A stretch of 64,000 nucleotides of DNA, taken from assembly GCA_000310025.1 (NCBI GenBank), contig FN649758.1, positions 861,485-925,484 on the forward strand, in the 5' to 3' direction. The position numbers and the translations under genes were made by a program. This DNA is from Ectocarpus siliculosus. Its lineage: Eukaryota; Sar; Phaeophyceae; Ectocarpales; Ectocarpaceae. Under the pieces are notes generated by a model that was given only the letters and a program-made list of their open reading frames with translations, ran no database searches and was not told where the DNA came from. Below are positions 2,502 through 21,561 of this stretch, piece by piece (the stretch's first letter is position 1; each line of letters starts with the position of its first letter).

Positions 2502-3998
2502 TCAAACTCCTAACAGCATGCCACGGGCGCGGAGAAACTCCGACGGGTTTAGCCCTTTCGTAAAAATGTCCGCTTTCTGAAGCGACGTCGATATTTGCTT
2601 CACGTCTACGACTCCATCAGCTACCAGCGACCTTACGTGGTGAAACTTTACGTCAATGTGCTTCGTCCTTGGGGTGATACGGAAGCTGCGAGTTAATTTT
2701 AGAGCTCCTGAGTTGTCCTCCCACACCACGGTTGCTTCTTCCTGAGTCTGATTTATGGTGTCCAGCAGGTGGCGGAAGTACTTGATGATGTTGCACCCCT
2801 TCGACAAAACCACGAACTCTGCTTCAACGGAAGAGGTCGCCACCACCGTCTGCTTGGATGATGTCCATTCCACCGGTCCACCAGCGAAGTACAACGCGAC
2901 TCCCGTGGTGGAGTAGCCCTTGTCTAGGTCGCCTGCAAAATCTGAGTCGACAAACGCCGTAATGACGTTTCCATCTCCGGCGTCCTCGCCGTAGCGTACA
3001 CCGATTGATATCGTACCTTTCAGGTACCTGAGTACGCGTTTGAGTTTCTGCATCGCCCTCGGACCTGGTTTCGCCATACTCCGCGTCAGAACCATCACGG
3101 AGTGAGTAATGTCGGGCCTTGTGCACCTGCTGAGATATAGAAGCGAGCCTGTGGCGGAGCGGAAATATGTGGTATCCTCCGCTGACAGCACCTCGTCCTC
3201 CAAGACGGACACCGGTCCAGCCTCAGACGGAGATGTCGTCGGACGCGCGTCGGCCATGCCGAACTTGTCCAACACTGCGTTGGTATACGCTTCCTGTTCT
3301 AAAAGAATTGTCCCTGCGGCTCTGTCTCGGCTGATTCCCATACCGAGTAGGAATCTGGCTCCTCCCAGGTCCACCGTTTCGAAACGCTCATTCAGCTGAT
3401 CGACTATGCTCAGCACTTTGTTCTTGCCCTCCCCGGTCAGCAGAATGTCATCCACATAAACGAGAAGGAGCACATCTCCGTCGTCCAGGATGTACAAGCA
3501 CGGTTCAGCGGTGCTCTCAACAAATCCGATCTTCAGGAGAAAGTCGTGCAGAGTGCCCCACCAGCCTTTTGGGGAAAAACGCAACCCGTAAAGCCATGCT
3601 TTGAGCTTCCAGACTTGCCTGGCTCTCCCGCTGTCGCACGAGAATCCTTCCGGGGGAATGACGTACACTGGTTTCGACCTCGGTTCCATCCTCGCGTGGA
3701 GGAACGCCGTCCTGATGTCGGCTTGGCGAAGAACAAGTCCATTCTTGGCAGCATGCGCAACTATCAGATGGACGGCTTGGAGAGACGCTACCGGTGCAGT
3801 ATTGTCTGTTCCGGTCTCAGCTTCGTGCAATCCTTGCACTACGATTGTCGATTTCTGTCGCACAGCGATGCCGGCCTCGTTGTACTTCCATTTGTAGATG
3901 TATTTTGACGGGATGATTTGAGCATCGCACGGGGGATCGACCCACTCATAAACGTCGTGGTCTAGCAAGGAGCGATTCTCCTCCTCCATGCTTTTCAT
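2502..3998 (-). CDS. Copia A reverse transcriptase and RNase H region
   Basis: 498-residue open frame. It starts with the usual Copia RT lead-in (WVDPPCDAQIIPSKYIYKWK) and has DIRTAFLHA, the YVDDILL catalytic motif of the polymerase and AWLYGLRFSPKGW. The RNase H part has TAFVDSDFAGD, SSVEAEFV and WEDNSGALKL, and it ends with KADIFTKGL near the C-terminus as in Copia polyproteins. The domain looks whole. It is part of a fossil element. Confidence 0.9.
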   Translation of the reverse strand: MKSMEEENRSLLDHDVYEWVDPPCDAQIIPSKYIYKWKYNEAGIAVRQKSTIVVQGLHEAETGTDNTAPVASLQAVHLIVAHAAKNGLVLRQADIRTAFLHARMEPRSKPVYVIPPEGFSCDSGRARQVWKLKAWLYGLRFSPKGWWGTLHDFLLKIGFVESTAEPCLYILDDGDVLLLVYVDDILLTGEGKNKVLSIVDQLNERFETVDLGGARFLLGMGISRDRAAGTILLEQEAYTNAVLDKFGMADARPTTSPSEAGPVSVLEDEVLSAEDTTYFRSATGSLLYLSRCTRPDITHSVMVLTRSMAKPGPRAMQKLKRVLRYLKGTISIGVRYGEDAGDGNVITAFVDSDFAGDLDKGYSTTGVALYFAGGPVEWTSSKQTVVATSSVEAEFVVLSKGCNIIKYFRHLLDTINQTQEEATVVWEDNSGALKLTRSFRITPRTKHIDVKFHHVRSLVADGVVDVKQISTSLQKADIFTKGLNPSEFLRARGMLLGV

Positions 3999-4034
3999 CC
4001 ATCCAACAGCATCTGGTCCGTTGACCGCTGCGCT

Positions 4035-5650
4035 TTAGTTCGGTGGATCGGCGGGCATGTATCCTAGTTGGCCAGGTATCCCTTGACCAAGGTTCCCGAT
4101 CTCACCTCCGATCACCAGCGCGTATTCCGTTTCGAACACCTGCTCCGTCGTAAACAGGTTCAGACGGTCCCGCGGCCTTGTCGTACGACCGCTTTTGCGC
4201 ACCGCGGGCGGTTCTTCGTCCGGTCCGTCGTTCGTTTCTGCCAGTTCTCGTTCCTCGTCTTTTGTCTCGGCCCCAGTGATGATGCCGGGCTGGAAAATCT
4301 GGCCTTGTTCGGGAAAAGGGTCAGACCCGTGCATGGGGCGAGCGACGTCGCGGGCATCTACCTCGCGGAATGACACTTCGGCAGAGTTTGTAATTTTGAG
4401 TGGTTCCGCCGGGTCCCATAGCCGCCACGTCTTGCTGGTTGTATTGTATCCCACCATGTAATACTTCTTGGCCCTGGCAGAAAACTTATCGTTTCGCGAG
4501 CGAGCTTCTACGTGTTTAAACGCTACAGACCCCCACTCATGCATGTGCTTCAAGCTGCCGAGTGGTTTGTCCTCCCAAACCTCAAGTGGTGCTTTGCCGT
4601 CCAGGACGTCAGTAGGTGTTCGGTTCTTGATGTAAATGGCGGCCTTCACGGCTTCCGCCCACAGTTGACGCGGTAGGTGCGGAGCTCCAAGCATGAGACT
4701 ACGTGCTGCACCGATGACGGTCCCGAAACCGCGTTCGGCGACAGCATTCCCTTGAGGGACGTACGGGGGGCTTGTCTCCACAGCGATCCCGAAGGACCGA
4801 CACATTGCTAAGAACCTACCCTTGAAGTCGGCTGCGCCATCGCAATGGATTTTCCCGATGCAGATGCCCTCGGGATCGGCGACTTCTTTAATCAGTGTTT
4901 CGAACGCGTCAGTCACTTCATCCTTTGTCTTCAGGGGAATGCCCCACCGCATGCGAGATTTATCGTCGGTGAACATTGCGATATGCTGACATCCGCTATA
5001 CGATGGCACACCATGTTTCCCCCACAGGTCGAGATGCATAAGCATCATTCGCGTCAGTGAACGGGCGCGGCCAACCGGGGGGTGACTCGCCTTCTTGCTT
5101 TTAGATACATCGCACACTTCGCAGTCACCTGGTTGAATGTTGGTGATGAACTTGATGCCGGTGCCTTCCTTATCCGAGAGCTGCTTCAGGGCGCGCGCAT
5201 TGCAATGTCCCATCCTCCGGTGCCAGACACCGGCATCGGTATCGGCACGGAAAACCAGCGGAGAACTAGGCAGGTCGAGATTCAGGTCGTCCAGGATGAG
5301 ATTCACGACGTACATTCGAGGCACCTCTGCTGTTGATATGGGGAAAGACAGGTTCCGGCTTCGCAGGGCTGGAGGTGCCGAGAGTAGATCCGTCTTCACC
5401 CCCTTCTCATCCAACGCTCCGACAGAAAATATGTTTGCTCCAAGGTCCCGCACAAGCAGAACCTCCAATTCTATCGGGACGGGTTGACCTTTGTCATTCT
5501 TGAGTTTGAACTTCAGCGTACCTTTCTTGGTGGCGCTGGATGTGCCGCACGAACCCTTGATGCGGACGTCGCAGTCAACCAAGTCGACTACATGTTGTGA
5601 GACTGGGCTCTCGCCGCTTACCATGTGTCCCGAAGCGGCGGTGTCGATGA
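4035..5650 (-). CDS. Copia A protease and integrase region
   Basis: The - strand shows the aspartic protease signature FIDTAASGH at the upstream end. Next come a GAG-pre-integrase zinc region (WHRRMGHCNARAL, CEVCDVSKSKK) and a DDE integrase core with HLDLWGKHG, FTDDKSRMRWG and an ERGFGTVIGAARSLM block. A KNRTPTDVL segment and a C-terminal acidic linker follow. This order matches Ty1/copia. The frame is interrupted upstream by the nested element starting at 5653. Confidence 0.88.
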
Positions 5651-5652
5651 AC

Positions 5653-5915
5653 AGGAAGGTTTGTTCGTCGAAGCAGATAGAATAAACTGGTGTTTATTTT
5701 GTAACAGTCGAATTAGAATTTGGCTTCATTTTCTACCGGAAACCCAGGGTCACGGTGTTTGGAATTATTAGTCTATAGTTGGGGGTGTCATTCCGTGATC
5801 GAGTCCACGCAGGGGCTGTAGCAAAGTCGGGTAACGTGTGACAGCTACAGAGCGCGTGAAGCAACGGAAGGACAGCAGCAGCCGCCTAACGCAGTAGCGG
5901 CGGCAGTTTAGAAAA
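5653..5915 (+). repeat. Split direct repeat A1 (left end of YR element)
   Basis: 263 bp from AGGAAGGTTTGTTCG to GTTTAGAAAA, repeated at 11597-11859 with no difference that I could find. Confidence 0.88.
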
Positions 5916-5970
5916 GGGCGGGACGGGACACGGCGCAAGCATTGGGGAAGTGACCAGCACGCGACTCTCC

Positions 5971-5978
5971 ATATAAAG
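5971..5978 (+). promoter_or_regulatory. Possible TATA box of the nested YR element
   Basis: ATATAAAG lies 56 bp inside the left repeat, upstream of all + strand ORFs of the element. This is position and motif only, with no other promoter evidence. Confidence 0.3.
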
Positions 5979-6160
5979 GTGTGTACTCGTGTCCAACATC
6001 CATCGTGTCGGCCGTGTTCCTATTCGCGTCCCGCTACTCTTGTGACCTCACCGCTGCGTGCATTTAGCACGAGGGGGGAGGGTGCAGTAAGATAAGCGGC
6101 GGCAAGCCAACGCAGTCTCGCTCGCCGCGCCGCTCAGATAGGTCCCTTCCCAAACATGGG

Positions 6161-6250
6161 ATGCGGTTCATCCCAACCGAGACGTACTCTCGCTGAAGAA
6201 AAAAAATGCGGTTCGTCCCAACCAGATGTACTCTCTCTGAAGAAAAAATT
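6161..6250 (+). repeat. Two-copy 45-bp direct repeat inside YR element
   Basis: Units start at 6161 and 6206 with ATGCGGTTC and end in an A-run after CTGAAGAAAA. It lies in the non-coding leader of the nested element. Confidence 0.7.
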
Positions 6251-7054
6251 CAACGGCAAAAAGAAAGAGCGGGGCCTGTTGTATGGTCGCACGCTGACTT
6301 GTCGCGGTTGATAGCAGCCATTGTACTGCACGGGGTGGAGGAACCCTGCGGCATCGGACATAACCAATCGACCCGCGGCAGTAGGGCATGATGCTGTCAC
6401 GATTATGCACATGAGGCAGGTGCCTTGTTTTCTGTTTCCCCCGGCTTACTAGGGACTACTTGCCGGTACAATCTTGTCTGTGCCGCGCACAGAGGGCCCT
6501 ATAGCTGAAGGAATCGACGATAATATGCCCACTCACGTAAGCAATCGTCTCCACGGATGGTATTGACAAGTCCCCACTGATGGTATCGACAAGTCCCATG
6601 GCATACAAAGCGGCCGCATACGTAATCGGAAAGTGCATTCAACAGCATTCACGGGAACGGATAAAAGCAAAAACACATGCATGCGAGAGAAAGACTCAAA
6701 GAAAAAGACTGAAAAACAATGAAGACGAGAAAAAAAAAACGAGACAGCGAACTACGTGCTGTATGCATAAGGAAAAAGAAGATGAGAAAAAAATAGGGGG
6801 GGGAGGTGGATGTGACACGCGAGGTTCGAACTCGCGAGGAACGTCAGGTAGCGGTCCATGTGAGTGCATCACGGTCTCGAGGGGCATCACGTCAAATTTA
6901 TTGCCGCCGTGACACAAACCTTCTATAAGAATACGTCACGTCCATCGACGATTAAGCGACCAAAAACGCCCGGACAGCAATTGATGCATGCCAAAAACTC
7001 GTCAACCTGCCGTAGGATTGTCTATGCGGAAGTGATCTCAATGAAAATAAAAAA

Positions 7055-8835
7055 AACAAGGACACGCACCAGCACGGGACGCGCCAATAGTGGAAGCACT
7101 CGTCCGTGCTGTTGGCGAGTGGAAGTTAACCGATCTCAACGCAACGAAACACGAAGTCATACATGTATCAGCACGGGATGCGCCAATGAGTGGAAGCACC
7201 CGCGCTGTTGGCGAGTAGAGTTAACCGAATTCAACGCAGCGGTAGAAAAATACCACAAATCATGCATCAGTACGGGACGCGCCAATGAGTGGAAGCACCC
7301 GTGCTGCATATGTGATGTCAGCCTCAGCACGGGACGCGCCAATGAGTGGAAGCACTCGTGCGGTTGGTGAGTAGAGTTAACCGATCTCAAAAAGAAAGAA
7401 CAAAACGCCGTACATGTATCAGCACGGGACGCGCCAATGAGTGGAAGCACCCGCGCTGTTGGCGAGTAGAGTTAACCGAATTCAACGCAGCGGTAGAAAA
7501 ATACCACAAATCATGCATCAGTACGGGACGCGCCAATGAGTGGAAGCACCCGTGCTGCATATGTGATGTCAGCCTCAGCACGGGACGCGCCAATGAGTGG
7601 AAGCACTCGTGCTGTTGGCGAGTAGAGTTAACCGATCTCAAAAAGAAAGAACAAAACGCCGTACATGTATCAGCACGGGACGCGCCAATGAGTGGAAGCA
7701 CCCGCGCTGTTGGCGAGTAGAGTTAACCGAATTCAACGCAGCGGTAGGAAATACCACAAATCATGCATCAGTACGGGACGCGCCAATGAGTGGAAGCACC
7801 CGTGCTGCATATGTGTTGTCAGCCTCAGCACGGGACGCGCCAACGAGTGGAAGCACTCGTGCTGTTGGCGAGTAGAGTTAACCGATCTCAAAAAGAAAGA
7901 ACAAAACGCCGTACACGTATCAGCACGGGACGCACCAATGAGTGGAAGCACCCGCGCTGTTGGCGAGTAGAGTTAACCGAATTCAACGCAGCGGTAGGAA
8001 ATGCCACAAATCATGCATCAGTACGGGACGCGCCAATGAGTGGAAGCACCCGTGCTGTATATGTGTTGTCAGCCTCAGCACGGGACGCGCCAACGAGTGG
8101 AAGCACTCGTGCTGTTGGCGAGTAGAGTTAACCGATCTCAAAAAGAAAGAACAAAACGCCGTACACGTATTAGCACGGGACGCGCCAATGAGTGGACGCA
8201 CCCGTGCTGTTGGCGAGTAGAGTTAACCGAATTCAACGCATCGAAAACGAAGTCGTACACGTATCAGTACGGGACGCGCCAATGAGTGGAAGCACCCGTG
8301 CTGCATATGTGTTGTCAGTTTCAGCAAGGGACGCGCCAATGAGTGCTGTTGGCGAGTAGAGTTAACCGATCTCAAAAAGAAAGAACAAAAACGCCGTACA
8401 CGTATCAGTACGGGACGCGCCAATGAGTGGGCGCACCCGTGCTGTTGGGCGAGTAGAATTAACCGATCTCCACGCATCGAAAACGAAGTCATACACGTAT
8501 CAGTACGGGACGCGCCAATGAGTGGAAGCACCCGTGCTCATATGTGTTGTCAGTTTCAGCAAGGGACGCGCCAATGAGTGGAAGCACCCGCGCTGCGTAC
8601 AAGTATCATCAGTGCGGGTCGCGCCAATGAGTGGAAGCACCCGTGCTGCATATGTGTTGTCAGTTTCAGCGAGGGACGCGCCAATGAGTGGAAGCACCCG
8701 CGCTGTTGGCAAGTGGAGTTCACCGTATCCAACGCATCGAAAAAAAAAAAAAAACACGTATCAGCACGGGACGCGCCAATGAGTGGAAGCACCCGTGCCG
8801 ATGGCGAACCGGGGTTCACCGAATCCAAGAAAATA
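7055..8835 (+). repeat. Hairpin tandem repeat array, about 22 copies of a 39-nt unit in 251-bp higher-order units
   Basis: The core unit is CAGCACGGG, then 21 nt containing GCGCCAATGAGTGG, then CCCGTGCTG. The two 9-nt arms are perfect reverse complements, so every unit can fold into a stem-loop. Variants in the left arm (CAGTACGGG) and the right arm (CCCGCGCTG) keep most pairs. The units sit in a larger repeat of about 251 bp (starts near 7411, 7662, 7913 and 8162) with AGTAGAGTTAACCG spacers and degrade toward 8835. The array lies upstream of the gag-like region of the nested element. Its role is unknown. Short ORFs through the array only reflect the repeat. Confidence 0.9.
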
Positions 8836-9121
8836 TATATATAAAAAAAAAAAAAAGAGAAACCATCGCTAGTGTTCCAAAGAGAGAAGTATTCGGGATT
8901 GGTCGACGTCCGGTGACCGTAGCGTCAGCAGCAATAATCACTCCATTCAATCCACAGGCGTCGAGAATGAACTAACGCGAGCTCGCGATATAACAACGCG
9001 TCGTTCTGGGCCCGACGAAAACCCACGTCAGATAGTTTCGCCCGAAGATAGGATTTGTAGACCATTCTAACTGCAGATCCAGGCGCGCGATCGACTACGC
9101 CCACGATGAAGAGGAAAAGAA

Positions 9122-10069
9122 GTGTTCCCGCAACGCCGCCCTGACGCTCGCCCGCCGCCTGCCGCCGGTCCGCTGCTTATACGACTCCAACCGCGACCAG
9201 ATGCCGACACGGGCCTCCACGCGGAGCGGCAGGGCAGCGGCTGGGCAAGCAGGGCGAGGTCGGGCGGCGACACCTTCGACACCACGCACGAGAGGTCTAC
9301 CGCGCGATCGGTGGCGAGCTCGACGGCTCGCCCCTCGACGCGCAGCGGATCACGTACTCCCGCGAGGCGTCGAGCGGTATCCTCCTCGCGAGCGCCAGGG
9401 ACAGGCACCCGCGGCGACCCCCCCGCTGATGAGACTGAGCTCGCTTCTCTCCGCGGGCTGGTGGACGGCCTGAGGGAGGAGCTGCAGCGGAAGCGCGATG
9501 AGGCTGCCGGTGATCGCCAGCAGCTTCAAGCAACGATCGACGACCTGATCGCCACCCAAGCAGCAGGACCTGGCCTTCCGGGGGGGGGTGCAACTTGTGG
9601 GCACAACCGCCCCACCATCGGCCTCTCGGGCCCCCGCTACACCCAGCGCCGAGGCGGCTAAGGCTACGGCAAAGGATAGAGCGCGGATGTGGGGGGACCT
9701 CCGCCGGGTAAAAGCGTGGCTCATCCTGGGGCGGCCCCCGGCAGTTTCAAAACTGTCGCAGATGGAGTGGCAATCCTTGCTTCGCAAAGGCGTCCTGGTG
9801 ACAGAGAAAGTGGCGGCATCGCTCGACACGCTCGTGGTTACTGCTTCGCCTTCAACTCGTCGTCCGGTTGCCATGATCGTAACTGCCCACACATCCACGC
9901 CCAGAACCCTTCCCACGCTAGGCGCGGAGCGTCCGAAACTCCGGCAACCGGCGCGCGCGGCGTTGGCCACGGCAACGGGGGAGGGCGCGGAGGAGAGGCG
10001 CGCGCCGCTGGCGAGGGCGGCGCGAGACCCAAGGCCGCTGGCTTCTTCACCCACGGGAAAGACAAATAG
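9122..10069 (+). CDS. Gag-like region with CCCH zinc finger (YR element)
   Basis: GC-rich open stretches in the same phase as the recombinase that follows. The first part is Arg/Ala/Pro-rich with a possible short coiled coil (DGLREELQRKRDEAAGDRQQ). The second has GYCFAFNSSSGCHDRNCPHIH, a C-x8-C-x4-C-x3-H finger like the one near the end of gag-like proteins of DIRS elements, and then a Gly/Arg-rich tail ending FTHGKDK. It is a fossil with about one or two breaks. The assignment to gag rests on the finger and on its place upstream of the recombinase. Confidence 0.55.
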
Positions 10070-10162
10070 GGGTGCGGGCTCTCCCGCGTAGCGGGGGGGC
10101 CTACCTCGGATGGCAGCGCACCTGCGGCTAAATCGAACGGCAGCACGCCGGTCTACACGAGG

Positions 10163-11317
10163 TTGGCTCCAGGGCTATCAGCAGGTTCAGGACCTGGGAC
10201 AGGCAGGACGGGACTTTGTTACCGACGTCTTGGCATGCAGCTCGTCGAGCACTCAGTTGCGTCTTCGTCTAGAAGGACTTACACGTCAGGCTTCAACTCT
10301 TGGTGCACGTTTCGCAGGCTGACGGAGAAGCCCAAGTTCCTAGGGCAACGTGCCGGGGACCTTCATGTGTGGGAGTTGATAGACTTCGTAGCCTGGTGTT
10401 TCGAGTCTGAGGGTAATCTAGCGAGTACAATATCCGGAAAACTCACGGCTGTACAACATTTTCATAGGCTGGAAGCTTCTGTCGAGCTAGACTTGTCGTC
10501 TCTGATGTTGAAATGTGCGCTAAGGGGGATTGCGAGGAACCACGTGGCTGTGGGGACGGTACGCCGTGTGCGCCTGCCTGTGTCTTGGCGTATGCTGCTG
10601 GACGGGGAAAGCGCAAGCCAGAACTGGGGGGAAGGGGGCAGAGTGATGTGGCTGTGTCTGTGCTTGTCCTATCTCTTTATCACACGGTCTGATGAGGTGT
10701 TCGCGAATGATGCGGGCAGGGTGCATGAGGCACACTGTCTTACGAGGGCGGACGTAGCATTGTTTGCTGGCGAGACGCAATTAGTCTTTAGTCACTATCG
10801 TAGAGCAGACCGTGTCGAAATGAGGTTTAGAGGGCACAAGGCCGATCAAGAGCAGAAAGGAAACATACGGGTTCGTACGCGAGACGAAGTCACCGGACCG
10901 CAGTCAGGTGTGAGAGCACGCGGTGGCGCGGTGGCTCTTGTGGTGGAGCTGTTATCGTGTCATGCGACGTTCCCTGACTCCGCACCGTTGGCTTCGTACC
11001 GTAGTGGAAGAGCAGTGAGAGTAGTGAGGTATACTGCTGCCCTCCGTGCACTCAGAGAAGTGGTAGCGAGGTCGGGGCGTAACCCCCAGGAGTACGCGTT
11101 GCACTCGTTGCGAATTGGAGGCGCGACGGCTCTTGCATCGGGCGGAGACATCGCAGAACGAGTGATTCAGAGAGAAGGGAAGTGGAGGTCGGATGCATAC
11201 AAGCCGTACGCGCGAAACAATGTAGAGGATTCGCGGCGAGTGTCACGGAAACTTACAGACGGCAGTAGGATCGTATCGAGACAGCCGGGGGAGGGGACCG
11301 TCTGGGGGAACGGATAG
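10163..11317 (+). CDS. Tyrosine recombinase (YR) of the nested element
   Basis: 384-residue open frame. The N-terminal part has a core-binding-like segment (SSRRTYTSGFNSWCTF, then DFVAWCFESEG). The catalytic half shows the first arginine in LFITRSDEVF, the HxxR box in LHSLRIGGATALASGG, and the candidate nucleophile tyrosine in AYKPYARNN. These are the R-HxxR-Y residues of the phage-integrase/Crypton/DIRS recombinase fold. The HSLRIGGAT box resembles eukaryotic transposon YRs rather than bacterial integrases. The ORF looks whole. With the split direct repeats, this enzyme is the likely integrase of the element at 5653-12166. A Crypton origin is the alternative. Confidence 0.85.
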   Translation: MAPGLSAGSGPGTGRTGLCYRRLGMQLVEHSVASSSRRTYTSGFNSWCTFRRLTEKPKFLGQRAGDLHVWELIDFVAWCFESEGNLASTISGKLTAVQHFHRLEASVELDLSSLMLKCALRGIARNHVAVGTVRRVRLPVSWRMLLDGESASQNWGEGGRVMWLCLCLSYLFITRSDEVFANDAGRVHEAHCLTRADVALFAGETQLVFSHYRRADRVEMRFRGHKADQEQKGNIRVRTRDEVTGPQSGVRARGGAVALVVELLSCHATFPDSAPLASYRSGRAVRVVRYTAALRALREVVARSGRNPQEYALHSLRIGGATALASGGDIAERVIQREGKWRSDAYKPYARNNVEDSRRVSRKLTDGSRIVSRQPGEGTVWGNG

Positions 11318-11358
11318 TTGACTTATTCGGTAGTCGTCCAGAAACTGACCTCGATGTG

Positions 11359-11597
11359 GGTGTTGTAGAATGGTGTGTACCATTTGAGGACTTGGTCAGT
11401 TTTGGGACTCCTGCGTTTGCAGTCGTAGTCCCCCGGCTAGTATTTGTGGGGAGAGAGATGGATTTGTAAGAGTTGACGCCGGCCTTTGCAGCTAACGCGG
11501 CCGGAGAGACGATGAGCGTTTCGTGCGTCTCTCTCCCCAACACGTAGCCTAGAAACCGAAGAAATAATGAAGCAATTCGAAAGAAAACAAAATAAAA
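11359..11597 (+). repeat. Split direct repeat B1
   Basis: 239 bp from GGTGTTGTAGAATGG to CAAAATAAAA, directly joined to A2. The same sequence recurs at 11928-12166 at the right end of the element. Confidence 0.88.
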
Positions 11598-11859
11598 GGA
11601 AGGTTTGTTCGTCGAAGCAGATAGAATAAACTGGTGTTTATTTTGTAACAGTCGAATTAGAATTTGGCTTCATTTTCTACCGGAAACCCAGGGTCACGGT
11701 GTTTGGAATTATTAGTCTATAGTTGGGGGTGTCATTCCGTGATCGAGTCCACGCAGGGGCTGTAGCAAAGTCGGGTAACGTGTGACAGCTACAGAGCGCG
11801 TGAAGCAACGGAAGGACAGCAGCAGCCGCCTAACGCAGTAGCGGCGGCAGTTTAGAAAA
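11597..11859 (+). repeat. Split direct repeat A2
   Basis: Copy of 5653-5915. It abuts B1 and is separated from B2 by 68 bp (11860-11927) found nowhere else in the window. This is the internal complementary-region position in PAT/Ngaro elements. Confidence 0.88.
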
Positions 11860-11927
11860 TCCCGCCCTCCCATCCCTTTTCTTTCGAAGGTGGGGGCATA
11901 AGTTCGGGAATATTCGGTATCTAGTCA

Positions 11928-12166
11928 GGTGTTGTAGAATGGTGTGTACCATTTGAGGACTTGGTCAGTTTTGGGACTCCTGCGTTTGCAGTCGTAGTCC
12001 CCCGGCTAGTATTTGTGGGGAGAGAGATGGATTTGTAAGAGTTGACGCCGGCCTTTGCAGCTAACGCGGCCGGAGAGACGATGAGCGTTTCGTGCGTCTC
12101 TCTCCCCAACACGTAGCCTAGAAACCGAAGAAATAATGAAGCAATTCGAAAGAAAACAAAATAAAA
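11928..12166 (+). repeat. Split direct repeat B2 (right end of YR element)
   Basis: Copy of 11359-11597. Copia gag sequence resumes at 12167. Confidence 0.88.
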
Positions 12167-13674
12167 CCCTCGTATGCTCGGCGGGCGCTGTCTTGTCCAC
12201 TGCACGAAAAACATTGGTGTACGCGACCAGCTCCTCATGCTGTATCGCGGCAGGGGGGTCCTTTTCCTGCTCGTAGGAGGCAGCAGGTTCCTCGGTTTCC
12301 TCTGCTGTGGCAGGCGCAATCGGCACCTGCAATGGGACAGCACGTTCCAACAATGGTAGCGAAGCTGTGGCAGGCGCAGCCAACACCTGCCCTACATTGA
12401 CATCGGACGCCTCCTCAGGGGTCGATGCAGCAGGCGCAAACGGCACCTGCTCGGGATCGCCTATGGCGATGTCGAACGATTCCAGCGTGAGGTCGACCTC
12501 GCGCGCGTGCGTGAGCCACGCCTGTGTCGTGGCTTCCGCGGTCGTGTTGACCTGCTGCTGCTGCTGCGGTTGCTGTTGTTCACGGTTCGAAAACCGCGTG
12601 GCATTGGAGGCGCGAAGCGGGCAGTTCGTCCAGGTGTGTTCCGTAGAATTGTGACAGTAACTGCATAAGCCGTCCCTGTCGTACCCGCGTCTTTGCTGTG
12701 TGTGGTTTGGCCGTCCAGAGGGCCGGTTGTCGGAAGACGCACCACCAGCTCCGTTGCCAGAAGTTGCGCCGCCATGGTTCTTCTGGTCGTTGCTGTTGTT
12801 CCCCCTCGACGACCCGTTGTTACGGTTCGACGAGTTGTTCCAGCTGCCACGTCCGCGTCCACCGCGCTGCGCGCGTCCACGACCATGATGACCGCCGCCC
12901 TTACGGAAAGAACGCGCTCCGCCGTGTGTGACGGTATTCAGCGCACGGCTGCTGCTTCCGGACGCGTTCTTCGAGGCAACTTTACCACGAATGTGCATCG
13001 CGTGGAACGAAGTGGATCGGTCGGCGACCTCCTCGAAGGACAAGACGCTCCCAGCAGCCTGGCCGCACAGCAGCCCTGTCTTGAACTCTTTGTAGTGGTC
13101 GTCCGGCAGTGCTTTCAGGAAAGCGAACGTACGTCTTTCGGTGGTCAGCCACCGTGTCGTTATACACGGCTAGCTCCGTGCAGATCCGGCGCATGTCTTG
13201 AATAACATTGGCCGGATCAAAATCGTGGTCCGCAGTAACTGCCAAAGATATGAACTTCTCGTGCAGCTCCTGCGTACGGTATACCCCAGCGGCCTGGTAC
13301 TTTCGTTCCAGGGCGAGGAATGCTCCACGACCGTCTCCGTTGTAGGAAGACCCGATAGGCGCGTATGCCTGCACAGTCTGTGAGGCCGCGCTCTGGTAGC
13401 CCCCGGTTTCAGATGTGGCGAGCATCAGCCGGGAAAAGACCTGTCCGTTCTTGTCCTGGTATCCTTCCAGGGCAGTTTGGTATGCCAAAGTCTGGTTTGG
13501 CGTAGCGCTTGGTCCAGGATCCGTAGGGGCTTTCTCCACTCCCAACAGAACCTTGTGCAGCTTGTCCTCCATAAATAAGGAAGTCTGCAGAGTTCGCCAG
13601 CCGACGTAGTCGCCTGGGTCACCACTGAACTTGGCGAATCCTCTTCGGATCTCGCCTGACGAGCCGGTAGCCAT
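12167..13674 (-). CDS. Copia A gag region
   Basis: Two overlapping open stretches on -. The first (from 13674) begins MATGSSGEIRRGFAKFSGDP and resembles the Copia capsid domain (UBN2-like, with KLHKVLLG and YQDKNGQVFSRLML). The second is Arg/Gly/Asn-rich, then has a CCHC zinc knuckle CSYCHNSTEHTWTNC typical of Copia nucleocapsid, then a Gln-rich stretch. It is cut off by the nested element at 12166. It is a fossil with a few breaks. Confidence 0.85.
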
Positions 13675-13731
13675 GCTTACCGACGCTTGTGACTCTGGTG
13701 TACTAGCTCGAGCAACTCGAGGCTCAAAACC

Positions 13732-13969
13732 TGTTGAGGCAACAGCACTGTCACTGCAGTTGCTGTACAGCTATTCCTTCAGCTGTGACTACAAAGTAGC
13801 TGGCATGTGATGCGAGGTTAGGTAGGCAAACACACAGAGTGATATTATTATCCACACAGACGCCCAAGCTGTCTTCACCTGACGGTTACAGACTTGGCAA
13901 CGCCTTCACAATACCGCATAAACCCATGCAGTAGAATAGAGTCGTTCTTGTACCGCAGTTACTCCAACA
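13732..13969 (-). repeat. 5' LTR of Copia A
   Basis: 238-bp partner of 1985-2222, followed at 13970-13974 by the target duplication CTTCT. As coding is on -, this is the promoter-bearing 5' LTR. The host intron sequence resumes directly after the duplication. Confidence 0.93.
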
Positions 13970-15234: not shown

Positions 15235-16640
15235 TCACTGCAAATTCATCACAAAGTCTCTGTGCAACGCAAAAGATTCCTTGCTGATAGCCTTCGTCAA
15301 GAAATCTGCATGCTGAAACTCCGACGCCACATGTGTAATCGAAATCTCCTTCCTCTCTACCAGTTCCCTAATAAAGTGATGTCGTACATCAATGTGCTTC
15401 GAGTTTGAGTTCGTGATCGGGTTGTGCGCAATCTGAATCGCTCCCTGATTATCCTCGAAGATTTGAATGCACGGCATACCTGCATCTGGCAACATAAAAC
15501 GCCAAACTTGCCTCAAGAAAAGCACCTCCTTCAAGACGTCGGCAATTGCCACATACTCTGCTTCCGTTGTGGAAAGCGTAACGCACTTCTGCGTCCTCGA
15601 AAACCAAGTCACACACCCACCCCCACACATCACTAGTCCTCCTGAAACCGACCTACGGTCTGCTGCCTTGCTCGCATAGTCAGCATCCACGAACACCTGC
15701 ATGCTCATGCCAGTCACCACACCCCTCTCAAATGTAATCCCCATCCAACTCGTCCTACGCACGTACCCTAAAATACCAAGTGCTGCCTTCCAGTGCACCA
15801 TCTTGGGAGACGCGCAATACCGCGCTACTGCTCGTACTGCATTCGCGATGTCCGGCCTGGTTTGAGTGGCCAACCACATCAGGGATCCTACCAACTCGCG
15901 GAAAGGGACATCAGCACACGCTTCGTCCTCGTCAAAGTCGGTGAGCTTCATGCTCACAGGCAAGGGCACACTCTTCCCCCACTCTACGCCGTACTCTGCA
16001 GCCAACTCTTCTGCAAACCTTTGGCTGCGAGATCCTCAAAAGGCCTCTCTCTAGATCTCTCTGGTAAAAGCACGCGGAGTACCACCTCAACTCCCCAAGG
16101 TTCTTCACGGGGACCATCTCGTTGAGGTCTCTGCCAAACTTGTCACATCTCTCCTTCTGCCCTACGGCAAAAATGTCATCCACGTGGACCACGATGATCA
16201 TGATCACACATCCATCCTCCATAAATCGAAAAACACATGCATCCGCCAAACACTGCACAAATCCTAAAAGTAAAAAGCACCTCGTCAGGTGCGCATGCCA
16301 TTGTCGTGACGCCTGCTTCAAACCGTACAGACTCTTGCATAGCTTCACGATCAGTCCAGATAACCTACCACAACCTTGCGGGAGACGCATGAAAACATCC
16401 TCTTCAAGCTCAGACTGCACAAACGCCTGCTGAATATCGAAATGACACAAGTCAAGGTTCTGCTCACATGCCAAAGCTGCCAACAAACGCACACTAGACA
16501 CGGATACGGTGGGTGCAAACAATTCTCCAAAATCAATCGAAGCCCTCTGCATGTCCCCCCGCGCTACAAGTCTTGCCTTGAATTTCGTCGGCCATCCGTA
16601 CTCGTCTGCCTTACAGTTGAATACCCACTTGGCGTTGATG
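15235..16640 (-). CDS. Copia B reverse transcriptase and RNase H region
   Basis: RT motifs are FDIQQAFVQSELEEDVFMRLP, LYGLKQASRQWH and VVHVDDIFAVG. RNase H motifs are QVFVDADYASKAADRRS, TLSTTEAEYVA and IFEDNQGAIQIAHNP, ending HADFLTKAI. It lies downstream of integrase as in Copia. It is a fossil with about one or two breaks in this part. Confidence 0.88.
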
Positions 16641-16657
16641 AAGTTTTCTACTGGTTG

Positions 16658-19600
16658 CTACACCGGACTAAAAGTACCTGCATCCAACAGACCGAAGAAC
16701 TCCCGACCGACTGCATCATCCCACAACTCTGAATGTTGGGACCGCATGGCCTCCTTGAACGTTTTCGGCACTCGGAGTTCGCTGGCGAGGCAGTGAGGGA
16801 GGTCCGGCATCTTGTCAGGAGGGCGCTTGGCACGAAGAGTGGCTTCCACGTCCTCGCGGGTGGCGAACATTGCTGCGAACATGTGCAGGCCCCCCGGCCC
16901 TCCAGCTCCTGCGGCCCCCCCGCTCCCATGGCCTGCTAAACTCGTATCTTGCGGCGGTGGGGGAGCGGGAGGGGCGATGCTGGCGGACGGTGGCAGGTCT
17001 CGACGTCCTTGATCGACGGCCTCCCGGGTGGCGAGCGACGAGACGAGCGCATCCTTGCCCATCATCGACAGCAGCCCAAGGCGGTGTTGGAGAGCGGTGC
17101 CGCCACCTGACGGCGACGGCGGTTGCTGTTGCTCATCCATGAAGCGCACTCGGTCGCCGCGCGTACGGCCATGCACTCTGGTTTCCTTCTCGCCCAATTC
17201 TCTGACCGCTCGCTGTGAAAGCGGCGGGTGAGCGGGAGCGGCGGCGCTTGCGGGCGGGGGTGTCGGCGGTGGACGGGGCGGCGTGGCTGCGGTGGACGGC
17301 GGTGCACTCGAAGACGCCGTGGAGATCGGCGACGCGGCTCCGGACCCTGTGAAGATCGACGGAGAAGTGGGCGGCGGCGAAGCGGTGGTCGCTGTGGGCG
17401 GGGTGTAGGTGTACGTCCGCGATGCCCATGGCGGTGGCGGTGCGGCAGCGGCTGCAGGAACGGCGGCGGCCGGCGAGGGCGCCGCGGTGACCGAAGAGCC
17501 CCCCCCGCTGGCCGGTACCGGCGCCGGCACGGCGGTGCGGCGGTTGATCCACACGACGTTGTTGGACAGGCAGATCCTTCCGGTGTCGGCGCGGAGAACG
17601 ACGGCAGTGGCGGCGGAGTGGTTGCGCGCTCCGTGCATGTAGAAGCAACGCACGGATTGGACGTCCGCCTTGCTGGCGCGCTTCACGCGCATCATCCCCT
17701 CCTGGAAAAAAGGGACGACGTTGAGCGGCGGTTTACGTCCGAAGAAGGCCTCGAACGGCGACATCCAGGCCGGGTTGGCCGACGTCGCGGAACGGTTGAA
17801 GCAGCCGGAGGCCCAGATCGCCGATGCAAGCCACAGCCGGTGTCCGTTGGCGTCCATACCGGGGATAGAGGCGAGGTCGACGTGGCCCATGGAGAGGACG
17901 TGGCGACGGGCGGCGTGGCCCCCCTTCATAGCGCGCCAGATTGCGCTCTCGACGACCGCATTCTGCTTCGGGGTGTCGGGTGCGGTGTACTCGCGCCGGA
18001 TGCCAGCGGCGTCGCAGAACGCGACGAAGGCAGCACTGGTGAACTCACCACCGTTGTCCATGCGGAAACACCCCGGAGTGCCGTTGCCGTTCAGGTCGGC
18101 GAGGAAGCGCCGCGTGTACGTCAGGGTGTCGCTCTTGGCCCGCATGCCGTACGCCCGTTGCCACCGCGACGCGCTGTCCACGAACATGATCAGGTAACGA
18201 GAACCATCGAACGCCTCAGAGTACGGGCCGGTGATGTCGATGTGCACCTTGCCGAACGGTACCGCCGCGCGGGTGACTCCACGCCGCGGCACCGGGGCCC
18301 TCCTGCCCTTCGCCTCGATGCAGCCGACGCATGGCTGCAGTTCCCCCACCAATTGAACACCCTGCTGCTTTGCGGTTTCCCTCATCAAGAATTCATTCAC
18401 GTGGCCGGTGGAAGCGTGGAACAAATTAATGTCGATGGTGGACGTGGGTTTTCCTACAGTGAACGCTGGACCACCGGGGGCGATAATCGCCAAAGCATGG
18501 GAAAGGGAGGGGGGACCTACATCTTGCTTCACACGGCACTCGACAACAAAGTCTCTGAGCACGTCCAACTCATCTTGCATCACAGCGAACGCATCGGGGG
18601 GCTTCACGGACTCACATACGCCTAATGGGTCGGGATAAAAGTCACCCGGCGGGACCGAGTCCTGTCCGTTCATCAAGCCTACATCCAAGAACATACTCAT
18701 GTCCATCAAAGGCAAATTATCCTGGGACTCAAGGGGCATGATCTCTATCTCTCGCGACACATTCGGGTTCACGACTGAGGGGGACAGGACGTCGGATGAG
18801 GCGATGGCTGCGGCTAGGGCAGGCTGAAAATCTCGGATCGACGGAGACACTAAATCAACATCGATAGGCGTGGAAGCATCACTCGGAGGTACTACACCGG
18901 AAGTGGTGGACGGGATGCTCGAACTCGAAGGTACGACACCGGCAGCGCCGATGGGCGGGAAGCTCGAAGCCGAAGGTACAACACCGGCGGGACCGATGGA
19001 CGGGAAGCTCGAAGCCGAAGGTACAACACCGGCGGGACCGATGGACGGGAAGCTGGAACTCGGACCGCATCCTGCACCCGATCCTGAAATCTGAGAAGGG
19101 GGAGGGGGGTTTTGCGCGAAAAGGCCAGTACCAACACCAGGCGGAGACGCTTGGCGGACAACGGGGGGAGGGACAACGGTAGAGGGGATTACATCACCGT
19201 CGCGGTACGAGGGAGGCAAGCGGGTGGCCGATAGAGAGCATCCGATATCCGAGTATGCGAAACTAAGCCGACCACCGAAAAGGTGCACACCCCTCTCATC
19301 CAACATTATCCTGTGCTTTTTCTGCGTGTGGTGCAGAGAGAACAAGTTGAACGAAATCCCTGGTACTACGTACACGTCTGTCAATTGGACACAGAAATCC
19401 GCTTCCCCCGATCGACCTCCTGCCATGTGAAATGCCAGATTGACACTACCTACGCACTCCACGCGCAAATAAGCACCATTGCCTACTTTGATGAATTCTT
19501 TGCCGGGGGGGACAGGCGAGATGTTGTACATCTTGTAGCTGTTACTCACAAAATGGTTGCTTGCACCGCTATCAGACCAAAATACCTCCCTACCAGGACT

Positions 19601-20725
19601 GTATTCGCAACTCTGTGCAGATAAAGCAAAGCCAAGATCATCACCACATGCGACACTGCTTACATCACTCGAAACCGAAAGCGAACTCATCTCGTCAGCG
19701 GACACAAAGTGTGCCATCAGGGAGTGGAGATGCCCAGGCGGATAGGTTGCTGCTCCGGGAGAGGGCGACTGGGGCGGGGCATGGGTGGAGTGCTGCTGCT
19801 GCTGCGGCTGAAACGACGGCGGTGGCGGAGGCTGCGATGGTGGCTGCTGCTGCTGGTAGTACGGTGTCGGAGGCGGGTAGTACGGCTGCTGCTGGTAGTA
19901 GTCTGGCGAAGGCTGCTGCTGCTGCTGCTGCTGCTCCCACCCGCCATACTCGGTACCATTCGCGGGCCCCCCGTAGGGCATAGCACTATACGCGTGCATC
20001 ACATTAGCGTGCCCGTACGGAGGCCGCCAAGGCGGTTGTGGAGGACGAGGGGGCGCTGCATACCTGTGCTGATGCTGTCCTCCGTAGCCGCTGTGAGGTC
20101 CGTGCTGAGGCCCACCGCCCCAGCCCCCCCCACTGTAGCTCGGCTGCTGCGGCGGCGGTCCGTGAAGTTGCTGTTGCTGAGGCTGCTGTTGCTGAGGCTG
20201 CTGTTGCTGAGACTGCTGCTGTTGGGGTTGCTGTTGCTGAGACTGCTGCTGTTGGGGCTGCTGCTGCTCCTGCTCCTTCCGACGGTCGCGCTGGGTGTAG
20301 CACTGGGCGTTGGTGTGGAACAAGCGCGGATGTAGGTAGCAGTGGTCGTTGTCGGCTCCTCTCTCACCTCCGCCTTTCTTGTTTCCTCTCACCCTGCTCC
20401 TGCTCCGACTCCGGGCGCCTCCGTCTCCGTCCTGACCCCCGCCGTTTCCACTCGACCCATTTTGGACACGTCCATCGCCCCGGATGCCACCGGAAGCGAC
20501 GAACGCGTGCCCCGCGCCATTCTTCGGTTCCCCCTCCCGACGGCGAACCGAGTCCGCATGAGCATCTCGCACAGCCTTTTCAATTGTCTCGCGCGAGGGG
20601 GGAATCGGTGACATGGTCAGAATCTTCTTCTCTACCGAGTACTCGTCGGAAAGGTGGTATACCATGTGGGCATTGGCATCATCGTCGGAGAAAACAACAC
20701 CGTGCGAGGCGAGCCTACTGCGCAA
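16658..20725 (-). CDS. Copia B gag C-terminal part, protease and integrase
   Basis: 1355-residue open frame. Its N-terminal part completes gag, then comes a basic Arg/Gly region and a long Gln/Pro/Tyr-rich tract that explains the CTG/CTGTTG runs near 19.8-20.3 kb. The protease has VFWSDSGASNHFVSN. Three near-identical repeats with the core FPSIGPAGVVPSAS lie at 18.89-19.06 kb. The integrase has HASTGHVNEFL and CVGCIEAKG (HHCC zinc region), HIDITGPYSEAFDGS, RMDNGGEFTSAAF and QNAVVESAIW. A Pro/Ala/Ser-rich linker leads toward RT. This is very likely one polyprotein domain block of the element. Confidence 0.9.
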   Translation of the reverse strand: MRSRLASHGVVFSDDDANAHMVYHLSDEYSVEKKILTMSPIPPSRETIEKAVRDAHADSVRRREGEPKNGAGHAFVASGGIRGDGRVQNGSSGNGGGQDGDGGARSRSRSRVRGNKKGGGERGADNDHCYLHPRLFHTNAQCYTQRDRRKEQEQQQPQQQQSQQQQPQQQQSQQQQPQQQQPQQQQLHGPPPQQPSYSGGGWGGGPQHGPHSGYGGQHQHRYAAPPRPPQPPWRPPYGHANVMHAYSAMPYGGPANGTEYGGWEQQQQQQQPSPDYYQQQPYYPPPTPYYQQQQPPSQPPPPPSFQPQQQQHSTHAPPQSPSPGAATYPPGHLHSLMAHFVSADEMSSLSVSSDVSSVACGDDLGFALSAQSCEYSPGREVFWSDSGASNHFVSNSYKMYNISPVPPGKEFIKVGNGAYLRVECVGSVNLAFHMAGGRSGEADFCVQLTDVYVVPGISFNLFSLHHTQKKHRIMLDERGVHLFGGRLSFAYSDIGCSLSATRLPPSYRDGDVIPSTVVPPPVVRQASPPGVGTGLFAQNPPPPSQISGSGAGCGPSSSFPSIGPAGVVPSASSFPSIGPAGVVPSASSFPPIGAAGVVPSSSSIPSTTSGVVPPSDASTPIDVDLVSPSIRDFQPALAAAIASSDVLSPSVVNPNVSREIEIMPLESQDNLPLMDMSMFLDVGLMNGQDSVPPGDFYPDPLGVCESVKPPDAFAVMQDELDVLRDFVVECRVKQDVGPPSLSHALAIIAPGGPAFTVGKPTSTIDINLFHASTGHVNEFLMRETAKQQGVQLVGELQPCVGCIEAKGRRAPVPRRGVTRAAVPFGKVHIDITGPYSEAFDGSRYLIMFVDSASRWQRAYGMRAKSDTLTYTRRFLADLNGNGTPGCFRMDNGGEFTSAAFVAFCDAAGIRREYTAPDTPKQNAVVESAIWRAMKGGHAARRHVLSMGHVDLASIPGMDANGHRLWLASAIWASGCFNRSATSANPAWMSPFEAFFGRKPPLNVVPFFQEGMMRVKRASKADVQSVRCFYMHGARNHSAATAVVLRADTGRICLSNNVVWINRRTAVPAPVPASGGGSSVTAAPSPAAAVPAAAAAPPPPWASRTYTYTPPTATTASPPPTSPSIFTGSGAASPISTASSSAPPSTAATPPRPPPTPPPASAAAPAHPPLSQRAVRELGEKETRVHGRTRGDRVRFMDEQQQPPSPSGGGTALQHRLGLLSMMGKDALVSSLATREAVDQGRRDLPPSASIAPPAPPPPQDTSLAGHGSGGAAGAGGPGGLHMFAAMFATREDVEATLRAKRPPDKMPDLPHCLASELRVPKTFKEAMRSQHSELWDDAVGREFFGLLDAGTFSPV

Positions 20726-21477
20726 AACAGCAAATCTCCCGAAAGTACTCTTTGCGGGGTCTCCCCTACTTTCATCTCAAGAGCGTGATATTGAGATGAC
20801 AGCCTTTCTTTTTCGGCCCTGGCACGCGGCTCGTAATAATTGAGGAATATCTTCCAACCTCCACTAGGACTCCCATCGGCGATGATCTGGGTTAGGATTG
20901 GCATGTATGTCACTGTCGTGATCAGCAGGTTCCACGCCGTTATTGCCTTTTCTACCCGTCCACTCGAATGCACCCTACGCATCTCCTCCATGCTCACGCC
21001 TTCTTTCCCAACTGGAATTTTTTCTTCAGTCAGTACTACGTCACGCACTCCTTCCTGGGCAAACATAGCTACCATGTTCGATCGAAAAATCAAAAACTTA
21101 GCCTGCTCATCCTCCCCTTGCTTGAAAACACCATCCCAAGGCGCTAGGCGCTTAGTCTCAGTCATTCGAACCGTCCCTGCGTTAATGGGTACTCTACCCA
21201 TGTCCCCTGATGAGACGTGAAGTCGACCGGTGAGGGCGTCGGCGAGTGTGCGGGCGATTTCGTCGGTCGTCGGGTTGGCCGATGGCCGCCCCGCGTGTTG
21301 CTGGTGGCGATCCTCGTGCTCTCTTCCGGTCCGGACGTCATCTGTCCTCCGCTCCTCTGCTTCTTGCCTCGACATCTCGGCCAGTCTTGCTTCTACCCTT
21401 TGTTCGACCAAGTAGTTGATCCGGGCTTCCTCCTCTGCTAGTCGGGCGCTCACTCGATCTTGCTCGGTGTCGTTCAT
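20632..21477 (-). CDS. Copia B gag N-terminal part
   Basis: 281-residue open frame starting MNDTEQDRVSARLAEEEAR, a charged coiled-coil-like N-terminus. A capsid-like domain follows (KFLIFRSNMVAMFAQEGV, then WNLLITTVTYMPILTQII and ERLSSQYHALEMKVGETP). It overlaps the next frame at 20632-20725. It is part of a fossil. Confidence 0.8.
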   Translation of the reverse strand: MNDTEQDRVSARLAEEEARINYLVEQRVEARLAEMSRQEAEERRTDDVRTGREHEDRHQQHAGRPSANPTTDEIARTLADALTGRLHVSSGDMGRVPINAGTVRMTETKRLAPWDGVFKQGEDEQAKFLIFRSNMVAMFAQEGVRDVVLTEEKIPVGKEGVSMEEMRRVHSSGRVEKAITAWNLLITTVTYMPILTQIIADGSPSGGWKIFLNYYEPRARAEKERLSSQYHALEMKVGETPQRVLSGDLLFCAVGSPRTVLFSPTMMPMPTWYTTFPTSTR

Positions 21478-21561
21478 CGGTGGCTGCTGCTGATCGCCGC
21501 AAAGCGATACTCCAAACTAAGCTCGACTCGAATCTCGTAGACGACGTGTCATACGCTAGCG

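Follow-up and report, generated by a model that had tools for sequence, protein, structure and literature searches.

The element described here, a 6513-bp insertion in the genome of Ectocarpus siliculosus (Phaeophyceae), encodes a putative tyrosine recombinase (YR), lacks a reverse transcriptase (RT), and is very probably a derivative of a Ngaro-like retrotransposon that was born from the spliced RNA of complete relatives. It lies at positions 5653–12165 of a 64,000-nucleotide stretch of contig FN649758.1 (GenBank assembly GCA_000310025.1, positions 861,485 to 925,484, forward strand), referred to below as the window. The DNA directly displays an exact loss of a GT...AG block, at least three such losses on the recombinase tree, a junction that was predicted blind and then found, complete relatives that still possess the block, and insertion without target duplication.

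The split direct repeats of the element stand in the order A1 ... B1-A2-B2, as an initial annotation of the window had proposed from sequence alone, and both repeat pairs, which it had judged identical by eye, are 100% identical. We compared the element with RT-bearing copies of closely similar sequence (L032 and L033), with another RT-less type (L030) and its RT-bearing neighbour L037, and with a more distant family to which the RT-bearing copy L031 and the RT-less copy L050 belong. A slash marks a junction throughout. The features of the element are as follows:

5653–5915 (+): A1, left terminal repeat, 263 bp, 100% identical to A2; its edge is set by 16 different left flanks.
5916–7033 (+): 5' leader, with homologous sequence at the same place in RT-bearing relatives (blastn against L032 and L033, 87–97%).
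About 7034–8842 (+): tandem array with units of about 95 and about 156 nt (250-nt double unit).
9201–10066 (+): gag remnant, ATG at 9201, frame shut after 90 codons.
9833/9834 and 9960/9961 (+): gaps in the gag remnant, with about 510 bp missing at the former and 84 bp, in frame, at the latter.
About 9842–9898 (+): CCCH zinc-finger motif of gag, C-x8-C-x4-C-x3-H, the same motif as in L032, L033, L031 and L050.
10067–10069 (+): UAG parting gag from the next frame, which is the same frame on both sides.
10070–10184 (+): start of the frame for RT and ribonuclease H (RNase H), 38 codons and one base, kept as a leader (exon 1 side); matched in tblastn by RT residues 1–39, counterpart of L032 5283–5397.
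10184–10185 (+): junction CAG/GT, where 2054 nt with RT-RNase H are absent relative to L032.
10235–11317 (+): putative tyrosine recombinase of 360 residues, counted from the first ATG at 10235, within a frame open from 10070.
11359–11596 (+): B1, 238 bp, 100% identical to B2.
11597–11859 (+): A2, directly abutting B1; B1-A2 is the joint expected of a circular copy.
11860–11927 (+): spacer between A2 and B2, 68 nt.
11928–12165 (+): B2, right terminal repeat; base 12166 is already target.

The CCCH motif accounts for the gag-like CCCH region of the initial annotation; it has no Pfam match, and its name rests on its residues. The lack of a visible RT, reported there as well, was borne out. In a tblastn search with the 768-residue RT-RNase H frame of L032, only residues 1–39 and 723–768, the edges of that frame, matched the window element (E <= 6e-17); the remaining matches had E values of 0.2–9.9, and the RT that the annotation had allowed might still lie inside this copy was not found by this search. 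The longer relatives that it had suggested looking for do exist and carry nearly the same recombinase and ends. L031, the first longer relative to be read, combines an array and a CCCH-type gag with a recombinase, split repeats and a frame in which motifs of RT and RNase H occur; it is distant from the window type, with 63–64% identity in the recombinase and 56% in RT. Its RT had at least 87 matches in the genome, several of which adjoin recombinases 93–98% identical to that of the window. L032 and L033 contain A1, an array, gag, the 768-residue RT-RNase H frame, a recombinase and B1-A2-B2, with the sequence of the window in the same order. The frames of L032 comprise gag (564 aa), RT-RNase H (768 aa, 5283–7586) and an overlapping 392-aa recombinase frame (7406–8581), and its identity to the window element is 98.1% in A, 97.5–98.3% in B and 98.1% over 1137 nt of the recombinase. 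In L033 the gag frame is broken and so, locally, is that of RT. A longer, weak RT match was seen in L025 (64.7% over 68 residues; 39% to the RT of L031), which we attribute to a short insertion close to the junction.

Three blocks of L032 are absent from the window element, two in gag (about 510 bp and 84 bp) and one that holds RT-RNase H. The last corresponds to L032 5398–7451 (2054 nt) and reads CAG/GTGTGG ... TGGCAG/GTTCAG, so that its removal brings the 38 opening codons of RT into register with the recombinase and leaves the joined frame open throughout. The resulting junction was found at 108 places in the genome with at most two mismatches (reversed control, 0); 89 of the 100 places listed are exact and 11 have one mismatch. 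The threshold was set at two since at three mismatches, with 117 matches, intact acceptors match too. An intact acceptor occurs at 10 places and an intact donor at seven (controls, 0), which makes RT-less junctions about 10 times as frequent as intact acceptors. Not all of these 10 places are whole elements: at L039 and L040 the sequence departs from the element shortly afterwards. The exon side of the donor varies between lineages. It reads CAATCAGCAG/GTGTGG in the RT-bearing C187 and CAATCAGCAG/GTTCAGG in L030-type RT-less copies (L030, L046, L048 and L049; four of the four shown), and CTATCAGCAG in L032 and the window; these variants track the same lineages as the recombinase tree. The gag deletions, two in the window and one in L030, served as a control: their ends are not GT...AG, and splicing is ruled out as their cause. 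Gag was lost after RT, the window type being without the 510-bp segment and L030 having a different loss. That segment is present at 14 places, six of them RT-bearing and five RT-less by their junction (C11, C344, C269, C137 and C71); we take the latter five for intermediates.

To estimate the number of losses we used trees of recombinase DNA. In a tree of 26 rows and 880 columns, the RT-less L030 type grouped with the RT-bearing L037 (support 100/99), apart from the window type. A single clade of all RT-less rows was rejected with p 0.0007 for the 26 rows and p 0.0009 for the 25 rows left when the outgroup was removed, the distant family being absent. L039 and L040, in which the sequence leaves the element and which form long branches, were left out of the second and third trees; with both included, one RT-less clade was also rejected (p 0.0014). 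When L050, L056 and L057 were added to the 26 rows, the RT-less state required three changes in the resulting 29-row tree, all three forced by well-supported branches. As the window-type rows possibly go back to one event, three losses are the safe minimum. A single old deletion is disfavoured by the tree together with the donor-side variants. Exchange between elements may have occurred but is not needed to explain this pattern, since the few bases ahead of the junction sort by the lineages of the tree.

The distant family provided a blind test. From L031 we predicted the junction CAGCAAG/GAACAACTC before any copy of this kind had been seen, and it was found at one place in the genome, on C183, with one mismatch (reversed control, 0). 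The copy there, L050, is 97.5% (1321 columns) and 98.5% (1386 columns) identical to L031 on the two sides of a 2062-nt gap, GTGGGA...TGGCAG, whose position in the frames matches that of the main family and which is likewise in phase. The edges of this loss share only three nucleotides (AGG), which means that the 6-nt GCAGGT repeat of L032 is not needed. The gag frame of L050 is open over the fetched part, from base 2 to the UAG at 1205; after B1 the copy runs into unrelated DNA, without A2 and B2 there.

We propose the following course of events. Complete relatives are organised as gag, UAG and RT-RNase H, followed by a recombinase that lies in a different frame and overlaps RT-RNase H at its end. 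About 115 nt into the RT frame, a GT...AG intron of roughly 2.05 kb would open, to close at the point from which the recombinase frame can be used. Unspliced RNA would then yield gag and RT-RNase H and also serve as the genome, and spliced RNA would yield a recombinase fused in phase to a short RT leader. Occasionally, spliced RNA would be packaged and reverse transcribed by the RT of a complete element, as it retains both ends needed for replication. A recombinase would integrate the cDNA after its closure via the B-A joint, and the resulting element would retain gag, recombinase and both ends but have no RT. The window lineage would be one such product, which has since multiplied and shed parts of gag.

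Several points weigh against this account. Splicing of the intron from RNA, the action of RT and gag (and probably of the recombinase) in trans, and the details of replication are inferred from DNA alone. The donor and acceptor are not strong by eye (CAG/GTGTGG, with little pyrimidine run), the blind test yielded one place only, and L032 lacks one A before the UAG. The 15 window-type RT-less rows were not rejected as one clade (p 0.26), and the three changes on the tree could also be explained by a single gain with two losses. Where contigs duplicate one locus, the number of copies may be overstated. The protein identities are a further such point. The recombinase had no Pfam, NCBIfam or PDB profile match; a PDB profile search with RT found nothing; RT-RNase H matched Pfam RVT_1 in two of three members at E 0.005–0.02, below the cut-off; and the mean predicted confidence (pLDDT) of the AlphaFold models was 32.5 for the recombinase and 27.9 for RT. 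In a Foldseek search with the former model, Cre and integron integrase were the best of the hits (21 of 38 rows), none at E <= 0.001, and we did not use this as evidence. The names rest on such weak profile matches and on motifs. An alignment of four relatives has invariant R151, H290-S-L-R293, W317 and Y322/Y325, and we take these R...HxxR...W...Y residues to be the tyrosine recombinase motif; the recombinase of L031 was the sole member to match the integrase family phrog_1 (E 0.0012). YVDD and the D-E-D of RNase H are assumed here to identify RT-RNase H.

An ordinary deletion of RT-RNase H between GCAGGT copies, by slippage or template switching, which happened once and then spread with exchange of flanks, would dispense with splicing. 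GCAGGT does occur at both edges of the L032 block (5394 and 7448) and only three times in the whole L032 element, and a repeat-mediated deletion fits the main family taken alone, a further point against our account; the unequal gag deletions also illustrate that plain deletions do happen. Yet in the L031 family, where the edges share no more than AGG, the lost block likewise runs from GT to AG, at the corresponding position and in phase, the single RT-less clade is rejected even without that family, and the exon-side variants match RT-bearing lineages on both sides of the junction. We consider such a deletion unlikely.

A little less probable still is that RT-less copies move as DNA circles by means of their own recombinase, in the manner of Cryptons, and no longer need RT. 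In favour of this, window-type copies have an open recombinase frame and all 20 fetched copies an intact B1-A2 joint, yet circle excision and reinsertion alone would not raise the number of copies to about 100. Neither is there a sign that the recombinase has been constrained after RT loss. The differences among 21 window-type copies (few, and a biased sample) comprise five amino-acid changes, one stop and no silent change. The ratio of nonsynonymous to synonymous change (dN/dS) is 0.78–0.92 in four pairs of L030-type copies and the RT-bearing L037, which itself has a stop, versus 0.16–0.48 between RT-bearing copies. The value for the window against L032 (0.18) is counter to this trend; its path includes time before the loss. 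On these small numbers, the constraint seems to have been relaxed after RT loss, which speaks for help in trans. We also observed a shared deletion of at least 8 bases early in the recombinase of L030, L046, L047, L048 and L049; in L030, gag remnant and recombinase form one open frame of 533 codons.

The initial annotation had left a choice between a reduced DIRS-order element with RT supplied elsewhere, which the RT-bearing relatives support, and a separate recombinase class with DIRS-type ends that never used RT. The latter is barely credible: the window copy lacks RT and RT-less copies outnumber intact acceptors, as it would expect, but the first 38–39 and the last 46 residues of the RT-RNase H frame remain in the window copy, RT-bearing relatives are 98% identical, and RT-bearing rows lie on both sides in the tree. 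We reject it on the RT remnants and these near relatives. Origin from spliced RNA of complete relatives, a route of RT loss that the initial annotation had not anticipated, remains our preferred explanation.

The UAG between gag and the following frame may extend this explanation. In the window, L033, L031, L050 and C187, gag and the frame after it share one register, interrupted by the UAG. The UAG is followed by GG-N4-CGGGCUC, in full in five of seven sequences, with one change in L030 and, in L032, the missing A upstream; this context agrees between families whose recombinases are 63% identical. Similar surroundings (TAGGG..., CGGGCTC) were seen in L031, L032, L033, L050, L051 and the window (10067–10069). 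The UAG is therefore a candidate readthrough site on sequence grounds. Folding downstream of it was no better than that of shuffled sequences (z −1.46 to 0.22), and a stimulating hairpin is unsupported. It is conceivable, though we lean slightly against it, that the element follows a retrovirus-like programme in which RT-RNase H is a regulated intron, a shared readthrough at the gag UAG produces Gag-RT-RNase H when the RNA is unspliced and Gag-recombinase when it is spliced, and spliced RNA is a second, infectious-like genome from which RT-less elements are born repeatedly. If true, this would be a concrete route from YR retrotransposons to elements with a recombinase and without RT.

The genome searched comprises 189.5 Mb in 492 contigs, and repeat counts from protein and DNA searches are lower bounds. 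A search of this assembly for the plastid gene of the RuBisCO large chain found no match. The recombinase had at least 107 scored protein matches (63–100% identical) among 741 candidates. Twenty other copies were fetched as the best-scoring matches to the window recombinase, a biased sample. The B1-A2 joint is present in all 20, the B2 end in 19 (absent in L013) and the A1 left end in 16; L016 has only the right end of A1, and L010, L025 and L028 have no A1 (L025 ends at a contig edge). Twelve of 21 recombinase frames, again best matches to the window, are identical and nine are off by one base, which fits the recent movement suggested by the initial annotation. A repeats also lie 569, 377 and 452 bp apart at C12:1576817–1582939, C22:939326–939965 and C10:2008833–2009547, respectively (G000). 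As 569 bp is the length of A2, spacer and B2 together, extra A-spacer-B units seemingly stand in tandem at some copies. On viral contigs, 27 pattern matches to relatives were seen and none was confirmed.

The insertion lies within another mobile element, between the frames of its host:

2502–13770 (−): copia-type element hosting the insertion, with Pfam domains RVT_2, rve, gag_pre-integrs and Pol_BBD.
2502–4034, 4035–5693, 12006–13169 and 12982–13770 (−): frames of the copia-type host.

The joined flanks matched an unfilled target at 16 places (15 at 99% and one at 96%; 165–166 of 166 bases), and the empty site reads GATGAAC^ACCCTCG in the four unfilled places read. Base 12166 belongs to this target, which corrects the 239 bp given for B by the initial annotation to 238 bp. 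Sixteen insertions are complete (the window and 15 of the 20 fetched copies), with lengths of 4318 to 6628 bp; the shortening of L027 is located in leader and array, among the blast matches listed. Their flanks overlap by 0 nt in nine, 1 nt in four and 2 nt in three. As the flanks share only 0–2 nt in 16/16, there is no target duplication. The simple long terminal repeats (LTRs) with target duplications that would mark an LTR retrotransposon, and that the initial annotation had named as evidence against its view, were not found. In 14 of the 16, an A stands two bases ahead of the left end.

The array was part of what the initial annotation had called a hairpin array. It is indeed an array, and the hairpins are unsupported: in seven array stretches folding gave z −1.95 to 0.29 (four from the window, −0.57 to 0.29; one from L032 and two from L031), and in three non-array stretches of the window z was 0.93 to 2.29. 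An array also stands upstream of gag in L032 and in both families (L031, 6673–8299, multiples of about 120 nt; window, 7034–8842, 95/156-nt units), its position kept between the two and its sequence unrelated.

Elsewhere in the window, a second copia-type element lies at 15235–21516 (−; rve and Pol_BBD domains). Two similar pairs of open frames about 16 kb apart, all on the reverse strand (33233–33982/49727–50371 and 36434–37387/53167–54114), had no Pfam matches and are probably a duplicated gene. An open frame at 26974–27699 (−) has a thioredoxin domain (Pfam PF00085, E 3e-13) and is probably an exon of a host gene. Rfam and tRNA scans of the window found nothing.

Among known classes, the window element is closest to Ngaro. 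Its complete relatives have the order A1-[ORFs]-B1A2B2 with gag, RT, RNase H and the putative tyrosine recombinase in the same orientation, as in the Ngaro elements described in the available parts of PMC8547959, PMC4157794 and PMC6681497. They share with these the absence of target duplication and of space for a methyltransferase between RNase H and recombinase, whose frames overlap in L032; Pfam gave no Dam match. The window copy itself has the split direct repeats and no methyltransferase, but not the RT and RNase H of Ngaro, and is therefore a derivative rather than a full member. A PAT-like element would share the split repeats and is set apart by the methyltransferase, absent here in Pfam. 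Inverted repeat pairs of at least 20 nt, as in DIRS1-like elements, numbered zero within 4500–13500. Cryptons have a recombinase only and no long terminal repeats, unlike this element with its 263- and 238-bp repeats and its remnants of RT and gag. It differs from Ngaro, as far as the same texts go, in that RT-RNase H is bounded by GT...AG and was lost cleanly and repeatedly, leaving RT-less copies with a recombinase and both ends. Those parts of the three papers report no intron in the RT of Ngaro, and the Ngaro deletion variants in the accessible portion of PMC8547959 had lost ORF1, not RT. In Ectocarpus, 15 DIRS/Ngaro families with 3893 copies make up 2.45% of the genome and show recent activity (PMC12477816, in part); splicing and RT-less families are not mentioned in that portion of the paper. 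An in-phase intron around RT-RNase H would be a direct, testable answer to how YR retrotransposons make a recombinase encoded behind RT, and would provide a mechanism for the repeated origin of RT-less, recombinase-bearing elements.

The open-licence literature yielded nothing joining spliced or subgenomic RNA with tyrosine recombinase and DIRS, TOC1 with DIRS, or Ngaro with readthrough. TOC1 of Chlamydomonas is presumably a short, non-autonomous relative of DIRS order with the ends of a complete YR retrotransposon. SIRE of trypanosomes is likewise a short non-autonomous element with such ends, of which, according to the available part of PMC6681497, only the end pieces are kept; the window element, by contrast, retains the recombinase and some of gag, and what it lacks is an intron-like block. 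BARE of barley produces one of its proteins, Gag, from a spliced subgenomic RNA, and has a parasitic subfamily that relies on the complete one (PMC3735527, abstract). Splicing favours Gag there and would favour the recombinase here, and that abstract does not describe retrotransposition of spliced RNA. In HIV-1, spliced RNAs are packaged and reverse transcribed (PMC1868081, in part), as proposed here; the difference is that in Ectocarpus the products would have been integrated, inherited and multiplied to about 100 copies, a case of spliced retroelement RNA founding lineages larger than that of its parent.

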